DNA of 64,000 bases from a virus, in IMG/VR virus record IMGVR_UViG_3300025881_000008, positions 40,075 through 104,074 of that record, one strand, 5' to 3'. Numbering within the stretch: position 1 is the stretch's first letter; each line of letters begins with the position of its first letter. This document shows, in pieces, positions 26,855 through 51,934 of the stretch. The position numbers and the translations under genes were made by a program. The notes under the pieces are model-generated. The model was not told where the DNA came from and searched no databases. It saw only the letters and a program-made list of their open reading frames with translations.

Positions 26855-29800
26855 TTATGACTTTATTTTTATCATAGGTTTGATGTCGTAAGAATATCCT
26901 AATCTTTTATTATATATCAACCTAAAATTCATAGGCTTTTGTTTATGTGATTTATAAGTAAAATTATTGTCAGGGGAAAATCCTCCGTCACCAATTAAAT
27001 TAATATCTACAGTGTTTACAATACTCGAAGCACTACCCTTAAAACGTTTAGTGTATAATTGAATAGAATCAACAACAAACTGTGATATAACATTTTTATT
27101 AATATAGAAATCAGCGTCGTCATTTAGCGTAGTCTTATCTCCGGCAGAATTTTGTGCGCTTACATAATTTCTAATGGCATTTAATACACCATCAGTCCTT
27201 AGAATTCTAGTAGCAACGTCTGTGATATAGAAATCAGCAATAATTTCATTTTCGTCTTCAAACATTAATACTTCTGTATCATTGATAGAGTTTTTTAAGA
27301 TCTCATCCAATTCTTCTTTACTTTCAATAACTTGATAGTTAAACGAATAAAGATTATATTCATTCTTAACTTTCATAGCAGTTGATGCTAAGTAAGATCT
27401 TTCTTCTGTATTGTCTACGGTTCCTGGAACATCTTCGCTTTTTCCACCTGAAAGAGATCTAGTGTAGTAACCAAAATCCCATGAAGATCTAAATACATTA
27501 ACATCTTTTTTAGAAATTGCAATCTCATCAATTAATGGATATAGTGGTAATTTATCAGAAGACTCTGACAATTTAGTAATACCAGTAGGATTAGTTTCAT
27601 TTATTTTATGATAGAAATGATTTTTAATTAATCCCCAGCTACCGTCATGTACGCCACCGTCTTGTATAAACCCAATATTAAATGTAGTACCACATCGATT
27701 GTATCTTTCATAATAAGCTTTAGCCGTAGTTAATTCGTAACTATTTGTAAGAGAGTGTTTGTACATTATTGATTCAAAACCAACTTCTCTTTGATCTGCA
27801 CTTGCTTGAATTCTATTAGATTTAAAATGAGTATACATGTCTGTGAATGTAACAACTGGTCTAAAATCTACCGTATATGCTCCAGCGTGTCTAATCAAGA
27901 ATGGATAATATAAAGCATCATCCTCTCTAGTCAAATTATATCCAATAATACCTTTAAACAGTTTATAACTTTTAGGTTTATCATTATCTTCTTCCACAGA
28001 AAGAGTTGCATATTTAACTATTTCAGTACCATCCTCGAAATTAATAGTAAATCTATTATTATTAATTGTACCATCTTCCTCGACCGTAGTATATGTAACA
28101 CTATCATCGTTTAAGTTAATCATGTTGGCTACACTGTTTATAGAAATCTTATTTAAAATAGTTTCATGTATATTAGTACCTCCATCGACATATGAATATT
28201 TTATTCTTCTTTGGATGTTATTAGGTAAATATGCTACGTCTAAAACATCGTCTGGATCGTTTACATTAACTGGAGGTCCAACAACTTTAATGGTACTTGA
28301 GTTTTCAACAGAGTACACTTTAAACTTATAGATAGTATTACCAGGCGTAGTTGGATATAAATCCATTAACACATCACCGTATAATCCATTTTCACCTAAA
28401 ACAATTTGATTTTCAAAATCAGGGATACTTCCGTCAAAATGATTTATACCTTCAATCGTATATGGTGAACCTTCAGAGAAATTTGCAGTATTCCAACTTA
28501 ATGCACCGTCAAATGGTGTATTCGCATAAGTATAATCTTCTATTGTGTGATCGTATACGATTTTGTGTTTTAATTCATATAACATTTTTCTGTTCATATT
28601 ACCTTTAATCCAGTAATCACCAAGATTTAAAGTAATGAAGAATATTACAAACTTAAACTTTTTATTTTGTATTATTTCAAATTCAACATCGTTATTAGTA
28701 ACATCATTATTAGTTTTTAATAGAATACTAAACTTATATCCATTAAACTCACTGCTTTTCACAAAGTCTAGCGCGGTTTTATTGGTAAATTCTTTTCTAT
28801 TTTTTAAGACAACTTTTAAACCTTTAAATATAGTACTCGCAAAGGCACCAGTATCTCCGCCGTCAATTAAAGTATATTTCTTTTTAAGGTCAGTCTTAAA
28901 AAACGTGTTATTAATATCATCTGGGTTTAAATAACCCCTAGTATACCCGCCGAATGTATCATATATGCCCTGAACATCATCACTGTTTAGATTCTTTTCA
29001 AATCCTTCAGTAATCATAAATTTATCAAAATAATTATTCTTAGTACTCTTAAATAAATTTGGAGTTAATTCAAAATCCTCTATAAAATTAATATATGAGA
29101 ATGTGTTGTTTAATTCATCATATCTTAAATAACTAGGTTTCTTCTCCATATAGAACCACTCATGTGTCATATCATCTTTACTACGTTCAGTAGCACTTAA
29201 ATCAGGTGAAAAGTTTGTTCTACCAAATGCTTCGTTAGTATTTAGATAATAAGGTTGATCTCTAACTGTTAAAGAATCTTTTAAAACCCATTTGTTTATA
29301 TTTGGAACCACTCTCGAATTAGTGGCAAACTCTTTTAATTGATTCTCTTTTAGTCTATCAAATTCACTAGTTATAATTTCAGCAGAAATATCATCAACAG
29401 ATTCTTCTGATAAAATACCAGATAAATTAGAGAAATAATTAATAGGTTTTAGTGGATAATTATCGCTAAAAATATCATTAGCAGATAATGTTGTATTGTA
29501 TTCTCCCGTAATTGGATCAATATTAAGTATGGCATTTTCATATGGTTCATATGCAATATTTGCCGTAGTTTCATAATCTAGTTCTTTTAGATCTGAGTTA
29601 GTAGTATCATAAAAGTCAAAGTTCATATCGTATATGTTATATGCTGAAAATAAACCAATTTTTACAATATTCTCACTAAATACTCTAGCCTCCCCGTCTT
29701 TAATATCGGATTTTAAGCTTAATATTAATTTTGATCTAGTAGAATTAGGTATACTTATATCCTCTACAATATCTATTACTTCGTTAAATATACCAGCATA

Positions 29801-32800
29801 TTTAGTTTCTAAATAATCTCCTACTGAAATTTCGCTTAATGTTGTATTGTTTATGTAAACTGATTTACTAGTAGAATTACCTCCGTTTAAATAATGAGCA
29901 TCCCACTTAGAAAGAATGTAACCCGCACCTTTTCTTAATTTTAAAATATTATTAAAATCAATATTGTCAACATCTATAAAATCAATTACATTTTCTTTGT
30001 TAACTAAAACAGCATGTTGTAATAACCTATATCCAGGAACCCTAGCTTTAACCCAAAGATCAGACCCGATATTATAAGCATCTAAAGGACTATCATCTGC
30101 ATGAATAACTCCTGCTAATGCAGAGGCAATATCACTTAATGTACCTTGGTTAGAGAAGAATTTTCCACTATAAGTTCCTTTCGGTAAAGTATAATTAGCA
30201 GAATATGTTCTGTTTTGAATATTAATATTGGTTTGAATTTGATCAACTCTTATTATAGAACTTATAGCTCCGGTTACCGCCATGTTTAGATCACCTAGGT
30301 TTGTTTCAATCTCAGTTAAAACAATAGACTGTGATTGATAATCAAAACTAATGTGGTAATTACCAACAGCACTAGTCTTTCTGTAGATTGTTATTTTATC
30401 TGGATCACTTATCGCCGACTCAATATTACCAGCAGTCTCCTGAAGAGTAGACCCTAACAATAAAGAATTATCAAATAAATTGTGAGTTCCCTGTGAATCT
30501 TCTAATCGAATATTAATACCCTCTCCCGGTGTTTGTTTAATAAAAGTAAATTTATAAGACTCCTCTCTTGATGCTACCACAGCAATTTTATCATTACTGT
30601 CTGGCACATCTACAATAGACATTTTAACAAAATCGTAGCCTCTTTCGTCATTTTTTATTAGATCGACAGATTTGCCAGTATGTGATATACCTATAGTGCT
30701 AGGAATATCTCCAGTAGAATCATCAATTCTAACTTCTAGATTTAGAGAATCATAAAGACCTGAATTAGATATCTTATAGTATACACCATTAATTAATACA
30801 TAACCAAGTGTTGGCGTAGTACTCATTTGTTTATGTGTTGGAATTGCAGTTGTTGGTTTACTTGGATTTACCAAAGACGAAACCCCTGCGAATTTAATAA
30901 CATTATTAGATATTGAACTTATTTCACCAAAGCCCGAATCTATATCATCTACGTAAAGACCGAAATACCTATTAATGCTATAATCGCTAGAATCATTATC
31001 ATCAAATAAAAATTCTAAGTTTAAAAGATTGGCACATAAAATATTGTTTCTTCTAAAACCGTCTGTGATAAAGTCATTAGCTTCAATTAAAGCTTTATCA
31101 GTCTCTACGAAGTCTTTGTAGATATATTCACCCTTACTAGTTAATTCACCAGAAGACAAATCAATACCATTATAGTTAGTAACTTCATTTTTGCCAAGCG
31201 AAACAGTAATAGGTGATTTAGGGAATGTTTCCTGTTGTACATGTGCCCTGATGTATTTACCCAGGTTTGATTTTTTAGATAAATCAAAAGTTTTGATAAT
31301 CTCAGCGTTCCTTAATATCTCTTGAATCCTCCTAGCATTGTCTAAAGTAACACCAGATGCATCAACACCCCCTGGGTTTTTAACTTTAAATATAACAAAA
31401 TTGTTTGGCATGTTATTATCAGCCCAAATAGGTGCCAACATCCTATAACTCTCATCGTAGTTTTTAGAATAATTATATGTAGTACCATATTGATACTCTT
31501 CCTCTATTTGTTTATTATAAGAATCTAATACTGTCAAGTCCGACTCAGATCTTTTAGTTAAATAAACAAGATCAGATGTGGTGCCGTTTTTCTTAAAGAA
31601 ATTAGCAACATCGGTTGAATAATTACCATTAGGATTTATTGGACTCTTCTTGTATTTTATACCAGCTAAATCTTTACTAGCACTGATACTTTCCATATAA
31701 ACTGAACCATCTGAACTTGTAACTAGTTTAACGTTACCTGATAATTTGGGGTTAGTTCTTAATAGTGGTTTAGCTACATTGTCTAATTTATAGTTAGTTT
31801 CTGTTTTAAAGTTTGGTCCAGCAGAAACAGTTTCATAACCCTCAACAAACGGGAAAGTATATGTAGTTGTAACGCTTGAATTATCACCTATAACACAGAA
31901 ACTAGATGCTATACTTTCATATACATCAACTTTAACTTCACTACTTAAACCTATTTCAACGCCAGCTGAAACAACTGGCCTTTGTTGAGATGTGATACCT
32001 GAATCCTTAAGCAGGGCAATGGCATCGTCAATATCTTCTGCGGTTATTTTAACACTATACTCTAAACAACTATCAAAGCCGCTGGTCTTGATTACATTAC
32101 CAAATGATAAAGTATCAATAAATGTTTTTATATAGCTACCAGCATCACTAGAAACGTCCGTGTGTAGTCCATTAATAACATATATTGGCCAGAATAAAGT
32201 TTCTGTATTATTACCAGCCTCAGGCCCTTCTATTTCCGGATTTAATGAATAAAAACCATAAAATACATTTATATCATTTACACCAGGTTCCGGTCTAGAT
32301 ATGGTATTATTAGTTATGTTGGGCTTTATATAAGTCGAACACTGACCACTCGATACTATACTTGATCCGGAAACAGTAAGTCCGTCTGAGTCATAACCAT
32401 ACCATTTTAAATTAGCGCCATCGCCTGGATTTTCCCAAATTAAATAGCCAGAAAGATCATTAAACACATTTGATTCAAATAAATCTATTTGATCTTCGCT
32501 AGTTGCACCTAATTCAGTTTTATAAACAGGTGTGTTAGATTTAGCTAATCCTAAAAGATCAGTAAAAGGCGCAGTACCCTCTGGTCTAACATACCACAAA
32601 GTGGTGTTCGTAACAACGCCGTTACAAAATTCATTTATACTAGGATCTGATAAATTTGATTTGTTAGCTACTAAACTATATGTAACGTTAACAATATCCT
32701 CTTCACAATACCATTCAAATGTTCCGATAGAAGTTAATCCCCAATCATTAACCAAAGATCTTTTATAATATGTGCCAGCAGGAGCTTCGCTGTAAATACC

Positions 32801-34363
32801 ACTATCAATTAAACCTATCGTACTAGCGCCTCCGGTACTTGTATATAAATCTGAATAATATTCACTAATAAACAGAGGTGTGTTGTCAGCTACTAATTGA
32901 GAAAGTGTTTTTTGAGACGCGCCGTCATACCATACTGTTATTTCTTGATAATCTTCAGCACAATGTGTTATTGTGTTAGTTGCATATAAAACCGCAGTAG
33001 AACTAGAGTTTACCGAAACAGTACATGGAATAATACCATTAGTTACAATTTGACCGCTGCTGTTAATTTTTAATACACTTGTGGCACTATTATCTGAGAC
33101 AGTAATATACACATCTGTCGCGTTTGGTGGTGTAAATTTATTTAATAAAGATTGATCATAAAAAATAGAATCACCGCCAGATAATTGAGCAACATTATTT
33201 GCCTGCACGGTACTTCCGTAGCCAGTCGCCAGTGTTGGAGCGATACACATTGTATTAGGATCACTACCGAACGAGCTTATCTGAAAACTAAATACAGGAG
33301 AATATTCAACCTCAATATTGATAGTTGTTGGTGCAGATTCAGCGCCTTTGGAATCAATTGCTTTAATTACCCAACTATCATTACCAAAATAACCTGCATT
33401 AGGGGTATATGTAGCCCTTATAGAAGTGTTATCGTTTTGAACAAATGATATAGTTCCATTAGGGGTTGCTGTTATTTGTATAAACGATACTGGATCACCA
33501 TCAGCATCTGTCGCATTTACAATAAACATACTAGTGGTATTTTGTAAAACACTCGTACTGGTTGTGGTTATAACTGGTGCAGAATTCTCTGGATTAATAG
33601 TTATGATAGCAGGTGCAGATGTTTGATTTGCAGAATCTGTTACGGTAAACGTAAACGAATCAGAACCTGCCAGTGTTGAGGTATGTGTATAAGTTACTAT
33701 ATTACCTACAATAGTATATGTTCCTTTGGTAGGCGCCGCTACTATATTGTACGTTAAATTATTAGTATCAAAATCATCAGAACCAGATAGTGTAATAGTA
33801 ACTATATCATTCCATGCCACATCGTATGTTGCACTAATAGCAACTGGTGGATTATCTGATGTTGCAGTTGGTGTGGGCGTTGCAGTCGCTGTAGGTTCAG
33901 GTGTTGCAGTCGCTGTAAGTTCCGGCGTTGGTGTCGGAGTTGGAGTTACTACTTCAGTTTCAGTTGGCGTAGGCTCAATTTCAGTTTCAGTTGGCGTAGG
34001 TGTAGGCTCAACTTCTGTCGCTGTCGGCGTAGGTGTAGGCTCAACTTCTGTCGCTGTCGGCGTAGGTGTAGGCTCAACTTCTGTCGCAGTTGGTGTCGGA
34101 GTTACTACCGCACACTCCTCAATTTCAATGACCTCACCAACGGAACTGATAAGTAATACAACAGTATCATCACTTAATCGCCACCAAAGATCTTGTCCAT
34201 CAAATTGTGTCCCAAGTTCTAATCCAGGAGTCGTAAATAGTAGTGTACCTGCCCCTAGCGCGCCTTCATGAAATAATTCAGATAATTCAGTTGTTCCGGT
34301 TGCGCCACATGCTGTTATAGCACTTGAATAACCTAGATCAGTTTTTAATATGATTGATGCCAT
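26855..34363 (-). CDS. Giant virion protein (2502 aa) with PT repeats and cadherin/Ig-like domains
   Basis: The largest gene of the window. Residues 1-86 form a compact N-terminal domain. Residues 87-168 are a Pro/Thr/Glu linker built from VEPTPTPTATE repeats. About 170-350 contain two cadherin- or Big-type Ig domains (SDDFDTNNLTYNIV... DSFTFTVTDSANQTSAP, and ATDADGDPVSF... GYFGNDSWVIKAIDSKG). The central and C-terminal 1700 residues are beta-rich with several YNY/NN-rich segments and no recognised enzyme motif. Length and position between the collagen-like fibre and baseplate genes suggest a long tail fibre or baseplate-periphery protein. The frame is open throughout without frameshift. Confidence 0.65.
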   Translation of the reverse strand: MASIILKTDLGYSSAITACGATGTTELSELFHEGALGAGTLLFTTPGLELGTQFDGQDLWWRLSDDTVVLLISSVGEVIEIEECAVVTPTPTATEVEPTPTPTATEVEPTPTPTATEVEPTPTPTETEIEPTPTETEVVTPTPTPTPELTATATPEPTATATPTPTATSDNPPVAISATYDVAWNDIVTITLSGSDDFDTNNLTYNIVAAPTKGTYTIVGNIVTYTHTSTLAGSDSFTFTVTDSANQTSAPAIITINPENSAPVITTTSTSVLQNTTSMFIVNATDADGDPVSFIQITATPNGTISFVQNDNTSIRATYTPNAGYFGNDSWVIKAIDSKGAESAPTTINIEVEYSPVFSFQISSFGSDPNTMCIAPTLATGYGSTVQANNVAQLSGGDSIFYDQSLLNKFTPPNATDVYITVSDNSATSVLKINSSGQIVTNGIIPCTVSVNSSSTAVLYATNTITHCAEDYQEITVWYDGASQKTLSQLVADNTPLFISEYYSDLYTSTGGASTIGLIDSGIYSEAPAGTYYKRSLVNDWGLTSIGTFEWYCEEDIVNVTYSLVANKSNLSDPSINEFCNGVVTNTTLWYVRPEGTAPFTDLLGLAKSNTPVYKTELGATSEDQIDLFESNVFNDLSGYLIWENPGDGANLKWYGYDSDGLTVSGSSIVSSGQCSTYIKPNITNNTISRPEPGVNDINVFYGFYSLNPEIEGPEAGNNTETLFWPIYVINGLHTDVSSDAGSYIKTFIDTLSFGNVIKTSGFDSCLEYSVKITAEDIDDAIALLKDSGITSQQRPVVSAGVEIGLSSEVKVDVYESIASSFCVIGDNSSVTTTYTFPFVEGYETVSAGPNFKTETNYKLDNVAKPLLRTNPKLSGNVKLVTSSDGSVYMESISASKDLAGIKYKKSPINPNGNYSTDVANFFKKNGTTSDLVYLTKRSESDLTVLDSYNKQIEEEYQYGTTYNYSKNYDESYRMLAPIWADNNMPNNFVIFKVKNPGGVDASGVTLDNARRIQEILRNAEIIKTFDLSKKSNLGKYIRAHVQQETFPKSPITVSLGKNEVTNYNGIDLSSGELTSKGEYIYKDFVETDKALIEANDFITDGFRRNNILCANLLNLEFLFDDNDSSDYSINRYFGLYVDDIDSGFGEISSISNNVIKFAGVSSLVNPSKPTTAIPTHKQMSTTPTLGYVLINGVYYKISNSGLYDSLNLEVRIDDSTGDIPSTIGISHTGKSVDLIKNDERGYDFVKMSIVDVPDSNDKIAVVASREESYKFTFIKQTPGEGINIRLEDSQGTHNLFDNSLLLGSTLQETAGNIESAISDPDKITIYRKTSAVGNYHISFDYQSQSIVLTEIETNLGDLNMAVTGAISSIIRVDQIQTNINIQNRTYSANYTLPKGTYSGKFFSNQGTLSDIASALAGVIHADDSPLDAYNIGSDLWVKARVPGYRLLQHAVLVNKENVIDFIDVDNIDFNNILKLRKGAGYILSKWDAHYLNGGNSTSKSVYINNTTLSEISVGDYLETKYAGIFNEVIDIVEDISIPNSTRSKLILSLKSDIKDGEARVFSENIVKIGLFSAYNIYDMNFDFYDTTNSDLKELDYETTANIAYEPYENAILNIDPITGEYNTTLSANDIFSDNYPLKPINYFSNLSGILSEESVDDISAEIITSEFDRLKENQLKEFATNSRVVPNINKWVLKDSLTVRDQPYYLNTNEAFGRTNFSPDLSATERSKDDMTHEWFYMEKKPSYLRYDELNNTFSYINFIEDFELTPNLFKSTKNNYFDKFMITEGFEKNLNSDDVQGIYDTFGGYTRGYLNPDDINNTFFKTDLKKKYTLIDGGDTGAFASTIFKGLKVVLKNRKEFTNKTALDFVKSSEFNGYKFSILLKTNNDVTNNDVEFEIIQNKKFKFVIFFITLNLGDYWIKGNMNRKMLYELKHKIVYDHTIEDYTYANTPFDGALSWNTANFSEGSPYTIEGINHFDGSIPDFENQIVLGENGLYGDVLMDLYPTTPGNTIYKFKVYSVENSSTIKVVGPPVNVNDPDDVLDVAYLPNNIQRRIKYSYVDGGTNIHETILNKISINSVANMINLNDDSVTYTTVEEDGTINNNRFTINFEDGTEIVKYATLSVEEDNDKPKSYKLFKGIIGYNLTREDDALYYPFLIRHAGAYTVDFRPVVTFTDMYTHFKSNRIQASADQREVGFESIMYKHSLTNSYELTTAKAYYERYNRCGTTFNIGFIQDGGVHDGSWGLIKNHFYHKINETNPTGITKLSESSDKLPLYPLIDEIAISKKDVNVFRSSWDFGYYTRSLSGGKSEDVPGTVDNTEERSYLASTAMKVKNEYNLYSFNYQVIESKEELDEILKNSINDTEVLMFEDENEIIADFYITDVATRILRTDGVLNAIRNYVSAQNSAGDKTTLNDDADFYINKNVISQFVVDSIQLYTKRFKGSASSIVNTVDINLIGDGGFSPDNNFTYKSHKQKPMNFRLIYNKRLGYSYDIKPMIKIKS
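33993..34091 (-). repeat. 33-base tandem repeat (three copies) coding VEPTPTPTATE
   Basis: Three near-identical 33-base units begin at 33993, 34026 and 34059, each coding an 11-residue Pro/Thr/Glu block. Degenerate PT-coding repeats extend the array from about 33860 to 34110. In-frame unit length means copy-number changes would lengthen or shorten the linker without frameshift. Confidence 0.88.
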
Positions 34364-43433: not shown

Positions 43434-43714
43434 TATCTAGTTTGATTGTCGTCTTTTTTAACGGTATAATTTTTGTAATTCTTTAAATACCTAGTTCCCT
43501 TTAAAAGGTTCTTGATCGCATCTTCTAAAAAGATTAGAAAATGTTGCATTGTTTGATTTCTTTGAATGTGACCAGAAAGTGATCTACCTATAAATTCACT
43601 AGGTGGCAAAGCATCATAGTTGTAACCAACATGAAGTCTTTCGTCCTTTCTAGCCTTAGTAGTGTCATATCTTTTAACACGTTTATATCCAAGTAAATTA
43701 TCAAATAAACCCAT
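43433..43714 (-). CDS. Small hypothetical protein in the baseplate operon (93 aa)
   Basis: A 93-aa basic protein, MGLFDNLLGYKRVKRYDTTK at the start, with a central helical part (NQTMQHFLIFLEDAIKNLLK) and a charged tail. It shares a base with both neighbours (start at 43714 overlaps the gp6-like stop; stop at 43433 overlaps the next start), so the three genes are translated as a chain. No family recognised. A small wedge-assembly or chaperone protein fits the context. Confidence 0.6.
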   Translation of the reverse strand: MGLFDNLLGYKRVKRYDTTKARKDERLHVGYNYDALPPSEFIGRSLSGHIQRNQTMQHFLIFLEDAIKNLLKGTRYLKNYKNYTVKKDDNQTR

Positions 43715-45543
43715 TATTTAAGTGCTTTTCTATTTCCAGCCTGCATTCTAGTGTATATCGTTCTAGGAACTGGTTCTGCTTCGAAGTTTATACTAACAGC
43801 AGCCTCGGAATTAATCAAAACATCATCAACGATTTCATCACCGTCTCTGTCTTGCCAGCCACCTCTAAATACTGCAACTTCTTCTTTTTCCATTATAATG
43901 TCACCCCATTGATCAAGGCCCTTAACAGTATAAGGTATTTCAGTGGTGTCCGTAACAGGTACTACTTTAACATCTTCAATTCTTTTAAAGTAAACATACT
44001 TTTGTTTACCATTACCAACAGTTTCTAACGTCACGGGCTCTTGTGGAGCAATTGTAACATTAACTGATTCATAATAACCTAATCTTCTAGCAGTCTCTTC
44101 AGTTTCTGAAATAAATTTAACGTTAACCGCATCAATACCTTCAATCTCTTCTAAGATATAGATGATATCAGATTTTGGTAGTTTATCTCTTCTTGTAATA
44201 TTCAGTAAATATTCAGACACTTTAGCTCTAACTGCATTATAGATTTCATCTTTAGTGTAACCTTCGAAATATCTAATATTAATATCAATACTATAATATC
44301 TTACTTGTGGCTTAACAAAAACAACTTCAGTAGTTACCATTTGTTGGCCACTATCTTCAAGAACTTTATGCATTGCATCATACTCGCCCTGATCTAAAAA
44401 CATCTCTTCTTGTGGTATTGTAAAATAGTCTTGATTTTTAGCCAATTTCTTTTTAATATCTGGTACTGCAAAAATATAGATAACATTATCGTCATCTAAA
44501 TATTGATCATCGGTTGTGTTATATGCATCTATATAAGAGAACATGTTATACCTTGATAAGAAATATTCATAATTGTCTGGCGTTGCCAGTACAAAAGACT
44601 TACTTGCCATCGGAGTCATAATCTTAGTGAATTGTGTATTCTCTCTATCACTGCCCATTTTTGGTGATGAAGTAATAGTTACGTCTAAGAATTCATTTAA
44701 GTCATGTTCAGTTCCATTTGAATCAGTACCCGTTGCATCCCATTTAATAGTTAAATCCGGCGAATCATCAAGATTACCAGCTAAACCTCCGTGTTTTACA
44801 TATTCTACTTCAATAATTGCACCAACCGGTGGCACCATACCAAAACTACCATTACCAAAATAAAGGTCTAGACCTCCACTAATTCCTGTTTTAATTAAGT
44901 ATGCCTTTTCATTTGAACCTAAGTCATATAATGAATTGTGTTTGGTCCAAAGTTCACCATTAACACTAACCGCAACTTTGCTGTGATCAGTAATACCACC
45001 AGTATTAATACTAAATGACTGCAATTTATTACCATCACTGGTTACTGTTTGTTTTTCAAATTTACCTTGAATAATAGCAGTCTTAAATGAATTGTAATTT
45101 GTTTTCTCTAATTTAAACTTATCTTTAGAATTTAAAAGCGTGTATGTTAGGCCATTAATATCAAATTTAAGTTGAGCTCTTGCATCTATGTTTAACGAAT
45201 TCCCGGCTACTTTACTTAAATCAGCTCCCGGTTTCCATCTAAATTCAATTTCACCAGTTGCTGCAAAACCCCTGGTTGCATCATGACCAGTTAATCTAGC
45301 CATTCCATAAATAGACTCCGGCTGTTGTGCAGTGTATATGTTCTGCTCTACTACAGAATCTTCAATATAGAACATGATTAATTCTACCATTTCTGATAGA
45401 ACACTGATTATTTGTGCGAATGGAGATGCCACGGTAAATAGAGTATTAGCTCTATTGTACACTCTAGAAATATAGGTTCTCGCATCGCTAGTAATATTAT
45501 CAGCGCTGGTTCTAATTGTACTTAAAAATTTTAATTCGGCCAT
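43714..45543 (-). CDS. 6: Baseplate wedge protein, gp6/gpJ-like
   Basis: A 609-aa protein of the gp6/J-type baseplate wedge family. It has an N-terminal helical part (FAQIISVLSEMVELIMFYIE), a beta domain with a recurrent GSFGMVPPVGAIIEVEYVKHGG segment, and the characteristic C-terminal block: VRYYSIDINIRYFEGYTKDE, then VRAKVSEYLLNITRRDKLPKS and IEGIDAVNV. T4 gp6 forms the inner wedge ring that holds the baseplate together and rearranges at sheath contraction. It follows the gp25-like gene, as in many contractile tails. T4 gp6 is 660 aa, a similar length. Confidence 0.8.
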   Translation of the reverse strand: MAELKFLSTIRTSADNITSDARTYISRVYNRANTLFTVASPFAQIISVLSEMVELIMFYIEDSVVEQNIYTAQQPESIYGMARLTGHDATRGFAATGEIEFRWKPGADLSKVAGNSLNIDARAQLKFDINGLTYTLLNSKDKFKLEKTNYNSFKTAIIQGKFEKQTVTSDGNKLQSFSINTGGITDHSKVAVSVNGELWTKHNSLYDLGSNEKAYLIKTGISGGLDLYFGNGSFGMVPPVGAIIEVEYVKHGGLAGNLDDSPDLTIKWDATGTDSNGTEHDLNEFLDVTITSSPKMGSDRENTQFTKIMTPMASKSFVLATPDNYEYFLSRYNMFSYIDAYNTTDDQYLDDDNVIYIFAVPDIKKKLAKNQDYFTIPQEEMFLDQGEYDAMHKVLEDSGQQMVTTEVVFVKPQVRYYSIDINIRYFEGYTKDEIYNAVRAKVSEYLLNITRRDKLPKSDIIYILEEIEGIDAVNVKFISETEETARRLGYYESVNVTIAPQEPVTLETVGNGKQKYVYFKRIEDVKVVPVTDTTEIPYTVKGLDQWGDIIMEKEEVAVFRGGWQDRDGDEIVDDVLINSEAAVSINFEAEPVPRTIYTRMQAGNRKALK

Positions 45544-45557
45544 TATTTGTCTTTACT

Positions 45558-45565
45558 TTTTTATA
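45558..45565 (-). promoter_or_regulatory. Candidate late promoter box (TATAAAAA)
   Basis: Minus-strand TATAAAAA 14 bases upstream of the gp6-like ATG at 45543, partly inside the end of the gp25-like gene. Confidence 0.3.
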
Positions 45566-45917
45566 GCATACTTACTTTAATAGCATATCTACTATCTATC
45601 GTAATATCTATATATGCAATATCTCTAACTTCACCTTTCATAAAATTCACCTCAGTTTTAATGTTATATTTTGTCGCAAGCGGACAATAGTGATTTATTT
45701 GATCAGTTATTCTAGATCTTATGTTGTGTTCATTTGATCCAAAGTCATATATAAGTTCCTCTAAACCGCAACCAAAATTAGGAGTACCCATTACCTCTCG
45801 CTTATTAGTGAATAGCAACGTTTGTATCTGCGTGATCAACATTTCTATCTCACTATTAGTCTGAACCTGTGTTTCATCGTAATTCGGGTCGCTCGGATAT
45901 TTTATATATAGTTCCAT
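45561..45917 (-). CDS. 25: Baseplate wedge protein gp25-like
   Basis: A 118-aa gp25/LysW-type wedge protein. The family signature reads NSEIEMLITQIQTLLFTNKR then EVMGTPNFGCGLEELIYDF: the MLI.QI..LLFT..GE and PdFG.GL pattern of gp25-like proteins, although the usual Gly-Glu is Arg-Glu here. The C-terminal half has alternating strands (IKTEVNFMKGEVRDIAYIDI). Gp25 initiates sheath assembly at the wedge in T4, R-type pyocins and type VI secretion (TssE), and always sits next to gp6/J genes, as it does here. Confidence 0.88.
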   Translation of the reverse strand: MELYIKYPSDPNYDETQVQTNSEIEMLITQIQTLLFTNKREVMGTPNFGCGLEELIYDFGSNEHNIRSRITDQINHYCPLATKYNIKTEVNFMKGEVRDIAYIDITIDSRYAIKVSML

Positions 45918-45938: not shown

Positions 45939-46781
45939 TTAAGAGTGCATCATCCAATCAACACCTTCATCTCCTTTGATCTCTTCGTCAATGGCTGCTA
46001 ACTCATCATCTCCCATGGATTTAATAGCATCGTAATCAAAATCAACATTTCCGGGTAAAGCAAATTTAAAAATACCTAATTTAGTACCGATTGATTGTTT
46101 AATTTTAGCACTAACATATCTAAAGAAAATTTCATCGCTATATAGCGCACAATCTGGTATCGTCTCATACACCTCAAGAATAACATCTCCTTTAGGTGTA
46201 TCACCTAAGAATTTTAATTCACCGGTTAAACTTGAATAATTATATGATATGGGATTCTCTAGAATCTGTCTAGATAAGTCTGCCATCGAAGCATTCAATA
46301 CATAATATTGTAATTCTTCTGCAGCCTCAGCCATTCCAGAACCTTCATACATACCTCTAAATAGCATTCTTTCCATAGAAAAGTCAGAACCAGATTGGAA
46401 TCTTAAATCCATTCCACCACCGCCGCCATTCCATCCAGAAGCTAAGTCATATAAACCATAAACCGAGTATACTCCACCGCCACCATCTAAACCAGGGCCT
46501 GGTAAATTAAGTGCTCGGTGTGATTTAAAGTAATCAGTACTAAATACATTACTTGGTATATGATAGAAATTCTCTTTTACAGAGTACTCATATTTTTTAT
46601 AGAACCATTTTTTAGCTCTCTTAATAATATTAATGATTTCTTTTTGTGGTAGATTGATAGGAACCATACAGGCTCCAGTAATATCATCTGCTACTTCGTC
46701 TAAGAATAGATTTAAACAGTTAGGATCAAAATACCTTCCGGTAGTTAAATCATTATTTGAGCCGCTTATAATTTCACCCAT
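45939..46781 (-). CDS. Structural protein, neck- or wedge-associated candidate (280 aa)
   Basis: Unrecognised 280-aa protein with a helical N-terminus (LDEVADDITGACMVP, then EIINIIKRAKKWFYKKYEYS), a glycine-rich middle (GPGLDGGGGVYSVYGLY and SGWNGGGGGMDLRF), and a mixed C-terminus (EIFFRYVSAKIKQSIGTKLG). This plan (AKKWFYKKYEY helix, then glycine-rich loop, then a helical block) recalls head-tail connector/neck proteins of marine T4-like phages. It sits between the amidoligase-like gene and the gp25-like gene, so a baseplate or neck role are both open. Confidence 0.42.
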   Translation of the reverse strand: MGEIISGSNNDLTTGRYFDPNCLNLFLDEVADDITGACMVPINLPQKEIINIIKRAKKWFYKKYEYSVKENFYHIPSNVFSTDYFKSHRALNLPGPGLDGGGGVYSVYGLYDLASGWNGGGGGMDLRFQSGSDFSMERMLFRGMYEGSGMAEAAEELQYYVLNASMADLSRQILENPISYNYSSLTGELKFLGDTPKGDVILEVYETIPDCALYSDEIFFRYVSAKIKQSIGTKLGIFKFALPGNVDFDYDAIKSMGDDELAAIDEEIKGDEGVDWMMHS

Positions 46782-46788
46782 TTTTTAT

Positions 46789-48096
46789 TTATTTTATTTT
46801 TTTACTTACAACAATTTCTGTTTCTTCAAACCTAGCATCTTTGCTAGTGAAGCCCTCTCTAAATATACCACCTATCATTTTACCCCTAAACATAGTGTCT
46901 CTGCCGGCAACATAACAGTTGGTTAATTCACAACTACCATGCGTATAACTAGATTCAACTTTAGAGTCTTTCACTTTAGTAGCTCTATATAAACTACCCC
47001 ACATAACAGCAGAACTCGTGATATTGCAGTTATAAAAACTACAATTAGTTAAATTACCTGCAAGTTCACAATCAATAAATTCAAAATTTTCTAAAAGATA
47101 AACAGTTGGAAATTTACCATCTTTAACCTGTACCGCGCCATAATCTGAATCGTAGTTTATAACACCAGCGGTCATTGATCCATTTACAATAAGATCCATA
47201 ACTCTATTTTTAAACCTTTCCCATTGTACTCGTATAATAGTTGGATTATCTTGTAGATCGACTAATATTTGTATATCTGGCCAGTGCTCAGATACTTTAG
47301 AGTAATCTTTGAGCATATCCATTATGGGTTTATTCTTATTTATAATTCTCTGTAATTCAATTTTATTTTCAGCAGTAAAACGAGGATCGTTACAAGAGTT
47401 CCACATTTGCATTAGGAACCTTTCAATTAGGTATAAAATATTATCCGTTTTTTCCTCATAATCTGCACCACCCAAATATCTAAACTCAAGATAGTTCTTT
47501 TCTTTTTTAGAAAAGTTTATACCATAATATTTCGTATCGGCAAATTTAAAATTATTTGATGCTACTTGATTTGCATCAAAGTGAAATGCTTCCCATTTTG
47601 GCATTACCCATTTAATACTTTTAGCGTATGCTGATTTTTCTCTGTTTGGAAAAAACTTATAGATTTGTTGCTCATCAAAGTCTAAGATAAATTTAAGAAC
47701 ATTCATCTTAGAAATAAGTGCAGGATCCTCTAAATATTTTTTATCGAAAGATAAATTAATGTGGATTGACGCCCTATCATTGGTATATCCATTTTCAGAT
47801 ATCCAATTAAGCATTTTAATTACCATAATCCTAGCGTTTCTATACGGAATAGGACCAGTAACTAACTCGATTAGGCCTTTACCACCAGACATGTCTGGTT
47901 CCATTTTAAACTCTTCAGCTGAAGGTTGAAAATCAGAATGTGCCTTATCTTCTAACCTAATTTTTCGATCTAGAAGCTTTGCCAATGATTTTTGGGTAGC
48001 TTCTAGATCGAAATTAGAATAGAATTCAAACTCAACACCCATAAGTGCCGCGTTCAAAATTGATTCTCTTGAGGAATCTATAGTTAATTTTTGCAT
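46789..48096 (-). CDS. Amidoligase-like (COOH-NH2 ligase) enzyme with C-terminal pentapeptide/beta-helix-like domain
   Basis: A 435-aa protein showing the phage amidoligase pattern: LMGVEFEFYS (19-27), MEPDMSGGKGLIELVTGPIP (65-84), ASIHINLSFDKK (His112) and NYLEFRYLGG (Glu204, Arg206). These correspond to the GxExEF, EPD/EivTgP, HxH-type and iEFR blocks of the glutamine-synthetase/ATP-grasp-like amidoligase fold. The last 100 residues (FIDCELAGNLTNCSFYNCNI, YTHGSCELTNCYVAG) look like a right-handed beta helix with asparagine/cysteine turns. Family members join carboxyl and amino groups in peptides, proteins or secondary metabolites. It is embedded in the tail operon, so the substrate could be a virion protein. 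Activity unproven. Confidence 0.72.
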   Translation of the reverse strand: MQKLTIDSSRESILNAALMGVEFEFYSNFDLEATQKSLAKLLDRKIRLEDKAHSDFQPSAEEFKMEPDMSGGKGLIELVTGPIPYRNARIMVIKMLNWISENGYTNDRASIHINLSFDKKYLEDPALISKMNVLKFILDFDEQQIYKFFPNREKSAYAKSIKWVMPKWEAFHFDANQVASNNFKFADTKYYGINFSKKEKNYLEFRYLGGADYEEKTDNILYLIERFLMQMWNSCNDPRFTAENKIELQRIINKNKPIMDMLKDYSKVSEHWPDIQILVDLQDNPTIIRVQWERFKNRVMDLIVNGSMTAGVINYDSDYGAVQVKDGKFPTVYLLENFEFIDCELAGNLTNCSFYNCNITSSAVMWGSLYRATKVKDSKVESSYTHGSCELTNCYVAGRDTMFRGKMIGGIFREGFTSKDARFEETEIVVSKKIK

Positions 48097-48152: not shown

Positions 48153-49448
48153 TTAAGGCATTTTCAAAAATACTTTCATTGACTCAACGTCAATTCTGGT
48201 AATTTGTACCGTGATTGGATCTCCGTTCTTAAATACGCTCATAACTTCTTCACCAACTTCGCTTACATGTAGTAGTCCAGTCACTCCTTCTTCAATACTA
48301 ATAAATAAACCGTAGTCTTTTTTAGTTTTGACAGTAGCTTCAACTACTGAAGGAATTTGATATCTAGATTGAATATCACTCCATGGATTAACAGTAGCAT
48401 TAGCCTTTTGAGTAAGTGTGATCTTAGTATCACTGATAATATCCTTAACGATAAATGTGATTTCATCACCAGGCTGAATCTGTCTAGCTTTGAATTTAAT
48501 AAGAGTTTCCTCATCTAAGTCGTTATTATGGATCATACCAGTCAAACAACCATTAAATTCAACAAATATACCATATTTAGCAGTACCTGTTACATTACCT
48601 GTAATTTCAGCACCTTGATTTGCTTTTATGTTTTCAATCTCGTTTGGAATTAAAGCCTGTAGATATTTTCTGTGAGAAACTACCAATGTACCTCTATCTG
48701 GTGAGAAACTTACAGGAACAACATAGATTTCAGTACCAATAATAGAACTAAAGTCATGTAGTTTATTAATACCTGCTAATGAACCTGGCATAAAACAATC
48801 AATTCCCTGAATATTTACCATATAACCACCATTCTCAATCATATGTGTAACTTTACCAACCCATGCGGTTCCACCAACTTCAACGGCTTCTCTAAGATCC
48901 ATAAAGACTCTGTGTTTTATACCACCGTTAATTGATCCGACTACATGTGAGTTGTTATCAGTTGAGGTAATTAAAACTGATGTTTCTTCACCCGGTTTTA
49001 AGGCTTGAATCGCAGCAGGTTCCTTATCATATTTAACATATATTAGTTCTCTGTAACCAATATCGACACTAATAAACTCTGAGCTAATACCATAAACCGT
49101 TCCAGTATGAATTTCTCCAACACCTACAATAGTTACCATATTACCCAAAGCAGCATCATGTGCGGTAAGCATGTCGTACATTTCTTGAGCATATGATTCT
49201 CTAGAAAAGACCTTATCGCCATTCATGGTTTTAATATGTGGATTTGGTTTTTTGGTTTTTGATGGGCAACTAGCTTCATAAGCATCCCACATGAAGTTTC
49301 CCTCTTCATCGTAATAATCATCCGATATATCACCACCATCTGATTTAAGATCTTTTAAGTTTTCGACCGTGATGTCTAGTTCTTCAACTTCTACAGTATT
49401 GACTTTAGTTTCGCCAATTCTGATCCTTTTGTTTTTTTCGTTGTTCAT
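48153..49448 (-). CDS. Ribosomal protein S1-like RNA-binding protein (four S1 domains)
   Basis: A 431-aa protein with a charged N-terminal region (1-95) followed by about four S1/OB repeats. They are near 100-180 (MVTIVGVGEIHTGTVYGISS), 190-265 (GTAWVGKVTHMIENGGYMVN), 275-350 (GAEITGNVTGTAKYGIFVEF, ending in ITLTQ) and 360-431 (VVEATVKTKKDYGLFISIEE, then TGLLHVSEVG). The G.V....YG.FV pattern of S1 domains is clear. Host S1 carries out mRNA unfolding and start-site delivery on the 30S subunit, and matters most where Shine-Dalgarno sequences are absent, as in this phage. A virally encoded homologue may favour phage mRNA, or modulate RNA decay. Its gene sits within the tail operon. Confidence 0.85.
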   Translation of the reverse strand: MNNEKNKRIRIGETKVNTVEVEELDITVENLKDLKSDGGDISDDYYDEEGNFMWDAYEASCPSKTKKPNPHIKTMNGDKVFSRESYAQEMYDMLTAHDAALGNMVTIVGVGEIHTGTVYGISSEFISVDIGYRELIYVKYDKEPAAIQALKPGEETSVLITSTDNNSHVVGSINGGIKHRVFMDLREAVEVGGTAWVGKVTHMIENGGYMVNIQGIDCFMPGSLAGINKLHDFSSIIGTEIYVVPVSFSPDRGTLVVSHRKYLQALIPNEIENIKANQGAEITGNVTGTAKYGIFVEFNGCLTGMIHNNDLDEETLIKFKARQIQPGDEITFIVKDIISDTKITLTQKANATVNPWSDIQSRYQIPSVVEATVKTKKDYGLFISIEEGVTGLLHVSEVGEEVMSVFKNGDPITVQITRIDVESMKVFLKMP

Positions 49449-49493: not shown

Positions 49494-51218
49494 TTAGAAG
49501 ACTACCGGTACAAAACCTACCATCGGCACGGGACCTACTGGTGTTGGTATACCTCCTAAATAGAGTAATTTAAATTCTAACAAGTGTAGAGCATATACCG
49601 CGGCAACTGCTGTAGAAACCGCAAGTGCTGGTGGTTGAGGTGCTGGCAATACACTAAATGTTTTACCAGTATTCCAAGCTCTTCTAAGATTTTTAGCTAG
49701 TCTCTTTTTACCACCATAATAAATCGGTATATAAATACCAGTTAATGGTGGGGGAATTAAAGCTGGCAAAGCAGATGGTGATGGAGCAAATGGTTTAACT
49801 AAACATGCATACCAATACGCAATAGTTATTTCAGCCATTTCTTCATATGGATCTCCACCTGGCCAACTAAAATTTATATCAACATCCTCCTCTGCCGTGT
49901 CACATTCGTCAGCTGCTTTTTTAGCATCAATAACCTGTTGTCTTTGAAACTTAAAAATAGTACCGCCGGCGTTTGGGCTTATATTAATAATATCATCAGC
50001 TGACTTAACATTTTTAATGGCTCCGGGAATTTTTGCCCAATGTATATCGTACTCTAATTTTTCATATTGTGCCGTTACATATGTGTTGTCTTTTTTCCAC
50101 CAAATCACTTTAGTATCGTCGGATACACCGTATTTAAAACTCATTTCAGATCCGTTGTCATATGAAAAAAGAGCAACTACATGGTCCGTTAAAATTTTAG
50201 GTCTTTTGCTTGGATAATCTGGCAAATTATGTTCCCTGTCAAAAGAAACCTGTATTTTGTATTCAGAGAGTGGACAGTCTGACATTTTAAAATTGTCTAA
50301 ACCGGCTTCAAACGCCGAACTTACACCATCAACCAGGGCTTGCCAATCATATCCTGCGCCCTCTATATCTGTTCTAGCTTTTTCACTCACATTAACGTAT
50401 GGAAATCTACCGACAAAATAAGTACCTCCAACCGCTCGCTGTATTTCAGTAAGATTATTGTACTTTGATTTACCTAAACTGGTGGCCCATAATTTATATT
50501 TGTCTTTTGCTTCTTGACTGGACAAATTGTGATATTGCTGTAATAATCTATTTGCAAATGACTTGGCCAAATCTGATACAGTTTCTGAACCGTCTAAACA
50601 TTCAAACTCAAAAAATCTAAACTTATATAAGTTTAAACTCTGTTTGTAATCTTCAACAAATTTATTAAATTTCTTTTGTTGTTTCTTTTCTTCTTCGATT
50701 GGATCTGGCTCTTCAATGGGTTCTGGACAAAAATCGGCATATGCTGGATGAGACTCTTTGCCCATTTCAATTATATTACCGTCTTTATCTTTCTGGTCTA
50801 ATAAAGGAATATCGCCCTCTCTTAATATTCTTTCAAACACCAAGCCATAACCCTGTTTTAAAAGAAACTCTGCCGCTGGATTATTAGTATGTGTTGCACC
50901 AAATGGTGTCATTGCTAATCCCTTTATTGCCTCTAGATATCTTTCTGCTACTCTTACACCAAAATCATATCGACCACTTAATGGGTTTAAATTAATAGCA
51001 TTAATCATCGATGTCGGATCAGTCGTCAAGTTAGCATTAACTGGATTTCCGGGTTTAATAGATTCTATTAATTCTGAAGATGGGGGGAAAATAGGCACTT
51101 GATCCTTGCCAACTTTTGGCAGATCATAAGATACCATACCGCCACCCGGTTTAGTAAACGACTGCCCCGATATATCGGACGCTAATGCTGGTATAAATGA
51201 TGGCCAAAGTGCGGGCAT
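49494..51218 (-). CDS. Virion protein of unknown function (574 aa), hydrophobic Pro-rich C-terminus
   Basis: A 574-aa structural-type protein. The N-terminal third is polar (MPALWPSFIPALASDISGQS, GGGMVSYDLPKVG), the middle has an acidic-basic coiled region (PIEEPDPIEEEKKQQKKFNK), and the C-terminal 110 residues are unusual: Pro/Ala-rich hydrophobic segments (FAPSPSALPALIPPPLTGIY, APQPPALAVSTAVAAVYALH, PTPVGPVPMVGFVPVVF), likely a small hydrophobic head. It begins three bases after the spike gene's stop. No domain recognised. A hub or spike-associated role is plausible from position. Confidence 0.5.
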   Translation of the reverse strand: MPALWPSFIPALASDISGQSFTKPGGGMVSYDLPKVGKDQVPIFPPSSELIESIKPGNPVNANLTTDPTSMINAINLNPLSGRYDFGVRVAERYLEAIKGLAMTPFGATHTNNPAAEFLLKQGYGLVFERILREGDIPLLDQKDKDGNIIEMGKESHPAYADFCPEPIEEPDPIEEEKKQQKKFNKFVEDYKQSLNLYKFRFFEFECLDGSETVSDLAKSFANRLLQQYHNLSSQEAKDKYKLWATSLGKSKYNNLTEIQRAVGGTYFVGRFPYVNVSEKARTDIEGAGYDWQALVDGVSSAFEAGLDNFKMSDCPLSEYKIQVSFDREHNLPDYPSKRPKILTDHVVALFSYDNGSEMSFKYGVSDDTKVIWWKKDNTYVTAQYEKLEYDIHWAKIPGAIKNVKSADDIINISPNAGGTIFKFQRQQVIDAKKAADECDTAEEDVDINFSWPGGDPYEEMAEITIAYWYACLVKPFAPSPSALPALIPPPLTGIYIPIYYGGKKRLAKNLRRAWNTGKTFSVLPAPQPPALAVSTAVAAVYALHLLEFKLLYLGGIPTPVGPVPMVGFVPVVF

Positions 51219-51220
51219 AA

Positions 51221-51934
51221 TTATTTACCTTTTTGTTGATAGTTAATATGAGTGCTCGATAATTTTCCTACTGTTATTGGAGTTGGTGGCATTGGGGGTC
51301 CAGAAGGACCCACGCCAGTTGGATGTATATGTGCATTATAATCGTCTAACCACATTTGTAACCAATCCTGTAGAGATTGACCCCTCACTGCTGGTTCTGT
51401 TTCATCTGCTCCCGGCTCGCCCGTATTTGAAACGAATATATCACCACAGTCTAAGAACATTTTAGCATCTGTACTGATTTTTATAAATCCCTCTTCGTCC
51501 ATTTGAATGATTGGGCGCTCTTTGGCACCGCTACCTCTTGTGATAACTAAACCATCTTCAGGAGAATGATAGATCCTTACGTTGCGCACAGCATCATATA
51601 CTAGCGATATAACATCATGTGGTGCATCAGAAGTTTCTAAAATATCTGACTTAAGATCTGTATTTTGATCTATTTGAAACCAGTATTCAGGGTGGTAGAT
51701 GTTACCGTTGTCAAAACGAACTGCAACAATATCACCAACTCTAGGTACTGCATGTGCACCAACTTGATCCCTATTCATAGGGGTTGCCCACGGAATTGCA
51801 TCATCAGTTAGTTTATCAAATTTACCATAAACTTTAACCCTACATCTTCCGTTTAAAAGAGGATCTTCGTTAACTACAACTTCCCCAAGCCAGTGTTGAT
51901 CCCTTAAATTATCTTTAAAAAGTTCATCAGCCAT
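51221..51934 (-). CDS. 5: Baseplate spike protein, gp5/gpV-type OB-fold
   Basis: A 237-aa protein with an N-terminal OB-fold of the gp5/VgrG/gpV spike type: HWLGEVVVNEDPLLNGRCRV, IPWATPMNRDQVGAHAVPRV, then GDIVAVRFDNGNIYHPEYW. This arrangement (G.V......GR..V..... PWA... G....P.vGd.V.V.F) is typical. The C-terminal third is Gly/Pro-rich, ending at IHPTGVGPSGPPMPP, which likely forms the tip-anchoring part. Unlike T4 gp5 it has no lysozyme domain (T4 is 575 aa), so cell-wall degradation must come from another protein. The start shares a base with the upstream gene's stop. Confidence 0.78.
   Translation of the reverse strand: MADELFKDNLRDQHWLGEVVVNEDPLLNGRCRVKVYGKFDKLTDDAIPWATPMNRDQVGAHAVPRVGDIVAVRFDNGNIYHPEYWFQIDQNTDLKSDILETSDAPHDVISLVYDAVRNVRIYHSPEDGLVITRGSGAKERPIIQMDEEGFIKISTDAKMFLDCGDIFVSNTGEPGADETEPAVRGQSLQDWLQMWLDDYNAHIHPTGVGPSGPPMPPTPITVGKLSSTHINYQQKGK

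Follow-up and report, generated by a model that had tools for sequence, protein, structure and literature searches.

Proteins with S1 domains were reported from huge phages by Al-Shayeb et al. (2020), who also noted that Shine–Dalgarno (SD) sequences are scarce in these phages and proposed that the S1 proteins steer or hijack translation initiation (PMC7162821); phage S1-domain proteins and the initiation-hijack idea have thus been in print since 2020. For large Bacteroidetes phages, Chen et al. (2022) described a bS21 that is expressed with structural genes, in a paper from which bS1 is absent (PMC9723584). The Microcystis jumbo phage PhiMa05 has a bS1 that derives from a Vampirovibrio-like host and lies beside bL21 and bL27 (PMC13157829). 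Work on the cellular protein of E. coli has assigned ribosome binding to domains D1 and D2, and has shown that uS2 is contacted by a helix (through F5, Q7, F9 and E10) and by D1 (through K43), and the mRNA by D2 (through F120 and F130) (PMC10123108).

Here we describe a bS1-like gene, P0001, of a large phage whose hosts are probably Bacteroidota bacteria. The window analysed, 64,000 nucleotides in length, closes a virus record of 104,074 bases (IMG/VR IMGVR_UViG_3300025881_000008). This record is a fragment, as are relatives of up to 165–176 kb, against the 200 kb that a huge-phage genome exceeds. The gene occupies positions 48153–49448 of the window on the minus strand and encodes 431 amino acids. 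Like the huge-phage S1 proteins it is phage-encoded, and the copies of LR756500, LR756501, LR756502, LR756504, LR745206 and Lak group with it; unlike in the published description (PMC7162821), the S1 of the present clade is 61–100% conserved at one place among baseplate genes, has a D1–D4 layout with docking residues, and is accompanied by an SD scarcity that we trace to the host phylum. Like the bS21 of Bacteroidetes phages, it is the counterpart of a ribosomal protein that sits at the mRNA exit platform, and relatives of our phage also carry bS21, though in a region of PhoH-, RNase HII- and DnaJ-like genes rather than beside terminase and capsid genes as published (PMC9723584). PhiMa05, a jumbo phage, likewise encodes a bS1, and the two proteins match weakly (22.5%). 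Compared with Bacteroidota bS1 (rpsA), the order D1–D4 and the classes of docking and RNA-binding residues agree, whereas the overall identity of P0001 to cellular bS1 is only 25–30%, a long extension of its own precedes D1, and the phage copies stand as a separate group in trees. In the literature examined we did not find the clade-wide fixation of S1 in the baseplate cluster, the D1–D4 layout with docking residues, or the co-occurrence with bS21 in relatives, which are reported as new here.

An earlier note on this DNA had read four S1 domains into the gene, and this reading holds: the interval is an exact open reading frame, and AlphaFold2 predicts four OB folds, at residues 113–172, 196–259, 281–346 and 367–429. 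The model has a low pTM (0.31) and so does not predict how the domains are placed relative to one another. P0001 matches the Pfam S1 family (8.3e-22), and in a phmmer comparison with the PDB its residues 111–428 align with residues 21–344 of E. coli bS1, which comprise domains 1–4 (9.2e-42). The top NCBIfam model is 30S ribosomal protein S1 (1.9e-47, below the curated cut-off), and the scores of the curated rpsA equivalogs are missed (TIGR00717, 140.6 bits against a cut-off of 577; NF004952, 161.9 against 524); we therefore file P0001 as a diverged phage bS1 derivative and not as an rpsA equivalog. The best PDB structures found by Foldseek are of bS1 bound on the 30S subunit (E 1.9e-26), and bS1 in 30S mRNA-delivery complexes is among the strong matches. 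Sequence matches and predicted fold agree in identifying P0001 as a genuine bS1 derivative rather than a random S1-domain protein.

In assigning the phage domains, Bacteroidota bS1 was cut into six domains, one HMM was built per domain, and each phage domain was scored against these. All parts of the protein lie on the minus strand, and invariance below refers to 14 relatives. Residues 1–81 (49206–49448) form a variable acidic extension followed by a conserved stretch, NFMWDAYE...PNPHIKT, as delineated by the alignment and by low AlphaFold2 confidence; homology of the N-terminal FMWDAYE with the FDWDAFE of Bacteroidota bS1 was considered and found unsupported (hhalign probability 7.7%). Next comes a predicted anchor helix at residues 82–98 (SRESYAQEMYDML; 49155–49205), modelled by AlphaFold2 as helical at 85–94, in which SYAQEMYD (Y86, Q88, Y91, D92) resembles SFAQLFEE of the E. 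coli bS1 helix in a register set by eye. The four named residues are invariant, and the phage helix is predicted to be the counterpart of the E. coli helix that stacks on uS2. D1 (residues 111–176; 48921–49118) is recognised as a ribosome-docking type S1 domain by the cellular D1 HMM, which gives it 22.6 bits and the next best phage domain 6.4; its R133, likewise invariant, aligns with E. coli K43 of the uS2 pocket. D2 (residues 190–264; 48657–48881) is also of docking type, scoring 36.3 bits with the cellular D2 HMM, where the remaining phage domains reach 1.9 or less, and its invariant Y209 and F219 correspond to E. coli F120 and F130 in the phmmer alignment.

D3 (residues 278–348; 48405–48617) and D4 (residues 362–430; 48159–48365), the last domain, are assigned to the RNA-binding type by their OB folds and by an invariant motif of aromatics and histidine, Y292, F295 and H307 in D3 and Y379, F382 and H394 in D4. 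Together they match the general RNA-binding type of cellular D3–D5, with the best scores of D4 going to the cellular D4 and D5 HMMs. The concern that the domains might be too degenerate to bind RNA is therefore not borne out, as these aromatics and histidines are invariant; of the four S1 domains noted earlier, only D3 and D4 are of the canonical RNA-binding type, and D1 and D2 are of the docking type. P0001 ends after D4, so that D5–D6 of the six-domain Bacteroidota bS1 are absent; bS1 proteins with four domains exist in other phyla. Since D1 and D2 bind the ribosome in E. coli, the phage protein keeps the ribosome-facing half and has lost D5–D6. Invariance alone is weak evidence here, because these relatives agree completely at about 39% of all alignment columns (64% in D2, the best conserved part), and the invariant contact positions support docking of P0001 without proving it. 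In all, descent from bS1, docking-type D1–D2, RNA-binding-type D3–D4 and the loss of D5–D6 are established on the grounds of sequence comparison and modelled structure.

Relatives of P0001 are encoded in about 187 viral stretches, of which 80, from IMG/VR contigs and 61–100% identical, were kept for comparison of loci. The S1 gene sits among phage genes in all 80, and its downstream neighbour is the same in 80/80. The upstream neighbours are retained in 63/64 and 64/64 of the loci with room for them, and a reciprocal search starting from the neck gene finds S1 in 70/70 loci with room. A 462-kb genome, LR756500, has the same gene order around S1 as here; Lak and most of the 634–735 kb relatives carry S1 in other surroundings. 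With dN/dS values of 0.07–0.17 against relatives, the S1 gene is evidently under purifying selection.

The earlier placement of the gene among tail genes is confirmed by its neighbours, which include genes for a gp5-like spike, a gp25-like protein, a gp6/J wedge and a neck adaptor, all on the minus strand. Downstream of S1 lie a putative amidoligase with a pentapeptide-like C-terminus (46789–48096), a head-tail adaptor or neck protein (45939–46781; PHROG_211, 1.9e-8), which anchored the reciprocal synteny search, a gp25-like baseplate wedge protein (45561–45917; PHROG_261, and Pfam GPW_gp25 at 2e-4, below the cut-off), and a gp6/Baseplate_J wedge protein (43714–45543; PHROG_219, 5.6e-29, and Pfam Baseplate_J). 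The amidoligase assignment comes from synteny and from relatives, 6/12 of which match Amidoligase_2 (best 3e-7) where the copy in the window gives no match; BFVD amidoligases match this neighbour to 5e-10. Upstream are a fast-evolving protein of 574 aa in the baseplate cluster (49494–51218), the neighbour retained in 63/64 loci, and a gp5-like baseplate spike OB protein (51221–51934; Pfam Phage_base_V, 2.7e-7; PHROG baseplate, 1.6e-11). As these baseplate genes are co-directional with S1, joint late transcription is likely. The suggestion that a tail location possibly means large amounts of S1 does not follow, as baseplate proteins are produced in few copies. A T4-type late promoter (TATAAATA) was considered and is not enriched (8 occurrences against 15 expected). 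Searches found no structured RNA in 40–60 kb and no tRNA in the window. Elsewhere among the tail genes, a 2502-aa protein (26855–34363, minus strand; PHROG_31887) has relatives near S1 in LR745206 and LR756502.

Trees were built from the phage copies together with 42 bS1 sequences of Bacteroidota and a small number of others, with Lak in one of two trees only. A branch with 100/100 support separates all phage copies from bacterial bS1, and the phage group includes LR756500, LR745206, LR756502, LR756504, LR756501 and, in the tree that has it, Lak. The comparison with host S1 that the earlier note had called for thus gives a separate phage group, and common descent with the huge-phage S1 copies is supported at 100/100. 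An AU test does not settle where the phage group branches with respect to bS1 of proteobacteria (p 0.26), and branches are long. Across 396 Bacteroidota genomes the best identity of P0001 is about 30% or less; with no near relative there and the phage copies set apart in the tree, the idea that a Bacteroidota host recently donated the gene is unsupported, and the comparisons argue that S1 here is an old phage lineage. The Lak copies (L088, 11947–13056, and L100; code 15) share IKTKNNEKVFSHESYAQELYD with the phage described here and stop after D3, followed by an acidic tail, which indicates that some relatives can do without the full D1–D4 set.

Several records filed as phages (L092, L093, L094, L095, L096 and L098) contain typical bacterial rpsA genes; among them are fecal 'Bacteriophage sp.' contigs and an 'Acinetobacter phage' contig with cmk-rpsA-himD, and these six are likely bacterial DNA. 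Such plainly bacterial contigs among the S1 matches of a phage collection, and the earlier need to validate rpsA in viromes (PMC3877843), would be the case for regarding P0001 itself as cellular contamination or as an unimportant recent host gene capture. For this gene that explanation is already refuted and its probability negligible: phage genes flank S1 in every locus, and the fully supported phage group and the lack of a near relative in the 396 genomes stand against it.

The phage genes do lack SD sequences, as had been observed: none of the 83 ATG-start genes of the record has a 5-mer SD and 4-mers are at chance, and over 453 genes of five related contigs a 4-mer SD is present in 4.2% against 5.0% expected. 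In the leaders of these 453 genes, A is enriched at positions –14 to –11. A phage-specific shift of the A-rich signal, suggested by an A at –14 in 76% of cases in this record, is gone over the 453 genes. The phylum Bacteroidota does not use SD sequences (PMC9976891); Flavobacterium johnsoniae leaders have the same A-rich pattern, and in this phylum the –12 to –15 region is suspected to be read by bS1 (PMC6847099). Cellulophaga phage phi14:2 has A-rich, SD-less leaders as here, and no S1 match was found in the 50 kb checked of its 100 kb genome. The leaders of crAss001 have a weak SD and T4 has an SD in 57% of genes; a stretch of each, about half of the crAss001 genome and under a third of that of T4, gave no S1 match. 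Our own sample of host leaders was GC-rich and from mixed lineages, and would be unfair as a leader control.

The missing SD had been taken as a sign of viral control over start-site recognition. This interpretation does not stand, since the leaders follow the Flavobacterium pattern and phi14:2 has the same leaders with no S1 match in the 50 kb checked; given the published Bacteroidota pattern, the lack of SD sequences goes with the host and by itself says nothing about a viral S1. It is best attributed to the phylum of the host. As the phage leaders carry no signal distinct from the Bacteroidota pattern, a phage-specific reader is not required, and the published correlation between S1 and missing SD in huge phages is plausibly confounded by host phylum.

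Of 16 related contigs, 5 encode a bS21, as do four huge phages; within the clade it shares the strand of S1 and lies about 25–34 kb away. None is found in the record itself, where the usual place of bS21 falls beyond the end of the fragment. In two relatives, bS21 (L225, 9979–10164; L229, 9979–10161) stands, as judged by eye, in a module with PhoH-, RNase HII-, DnaJ- and Hsp20-like genes. The same two contigs have frames of Thr/Ser/Trp repeats (L225, 207–1325; L229, 289–2136; TTFNTNQSTTKSTTTTFNTTWSTSRA...) encoding a long low-complexity protein, probably a fibre or adhesin.

From sequence and modelled structure, the reading we favour, with moderate confidence, is that P0001 is a phage bS1 cut to D1–D4 that is made late, docks on the host 30S subunit and holds A-rich phage leaders for initiation. 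In this mechanism, S1 and the baseplate genes would share a late transcript, and the S1 protein would dock on uS2 of the host 30S by its N-terminal helix and D1, either displacing the loosely attached host bS1 or swapping places with it. At the mRNA exit, D3–D4 would then hold the leaders of phage mRNAs, which are A-rich and single-stranded, and late phage messages would thereby keep initiating on ribosomes barred by the host rule from SD pairing; relatives would also supply a phage bS21, the neighbouring protein of the exit platform. Ribosome docking is probable from the conserved positions, and ribosome entry has been seen for other phage ribosomal proteins (PMC6375957). Any advantage of phage over host mRNA would be the least certain step, because the leaders of phage and host look alike. 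A bolder version, in which the clade swaps both loose platform proteins, bS1 and bS21, late in infection to give phage-specialised ribosomes, and in which the amidoligase might modify a part, is tentative and unlikely; the link of the amidoligase to S1 is speculation.

Other roles can be proposed for the same domains. Lacking D5–D6, the protein might act as a dominant-negative decoy that blocks the uS2 site or ties up mRNA, shutting off host translation instead of aiding that of the phage. The strong conservation of D2, the shortened C-terminal arm and the reversible association of bS1 with the 30S subunit (PMC6847099) fit such a role, which we nevertheless regard as unlikely: RNA-binding residues that a mere plug would not need are kept in D3–D4 under selection, and a place among baseplate genes suggests that the protein is made at the time of the phage's own greatest need for translation. 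The protein might also be an extraribosomal RNA factor that acts in the decay of phage mRNA, in the coupling of transcription to translation or with some other phage machine, given that host bS1 works with T4 RegB and Q-beta replicase (PMC13157829) and that the fold match to bS1 in mRNA-delivery complexes is strong. RegB was not found in the 104-kb record, in a search without a positive control, and the conserved R133 and docking positions of the anchor helix point to the ribosome; an extraribosomal role is distinctly unlikely. More improbable still is a tail part or tail-assembly factor reusing OB domains. Baseplate proteins do include OB folds, and the place in the baseplate cluster is fixed in the 80 loci and LR756500, but the similarity of P0001 is specific to D1–D2 of bS1 and not to baseplate OB proteins, and Lak and most of the largest relatives carry S1 elsewhere.

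As reader of the A-rich leaders of Bacteroidota bS1 is the main suspect, and a four-domain phage bS1, conserved throughout a widespread phage clade, would be a natural minimal reagent to test this. Together with the bS21 of its relatives, the phage bS1 may also provide a means to test for specialised ribosomes late in infection.
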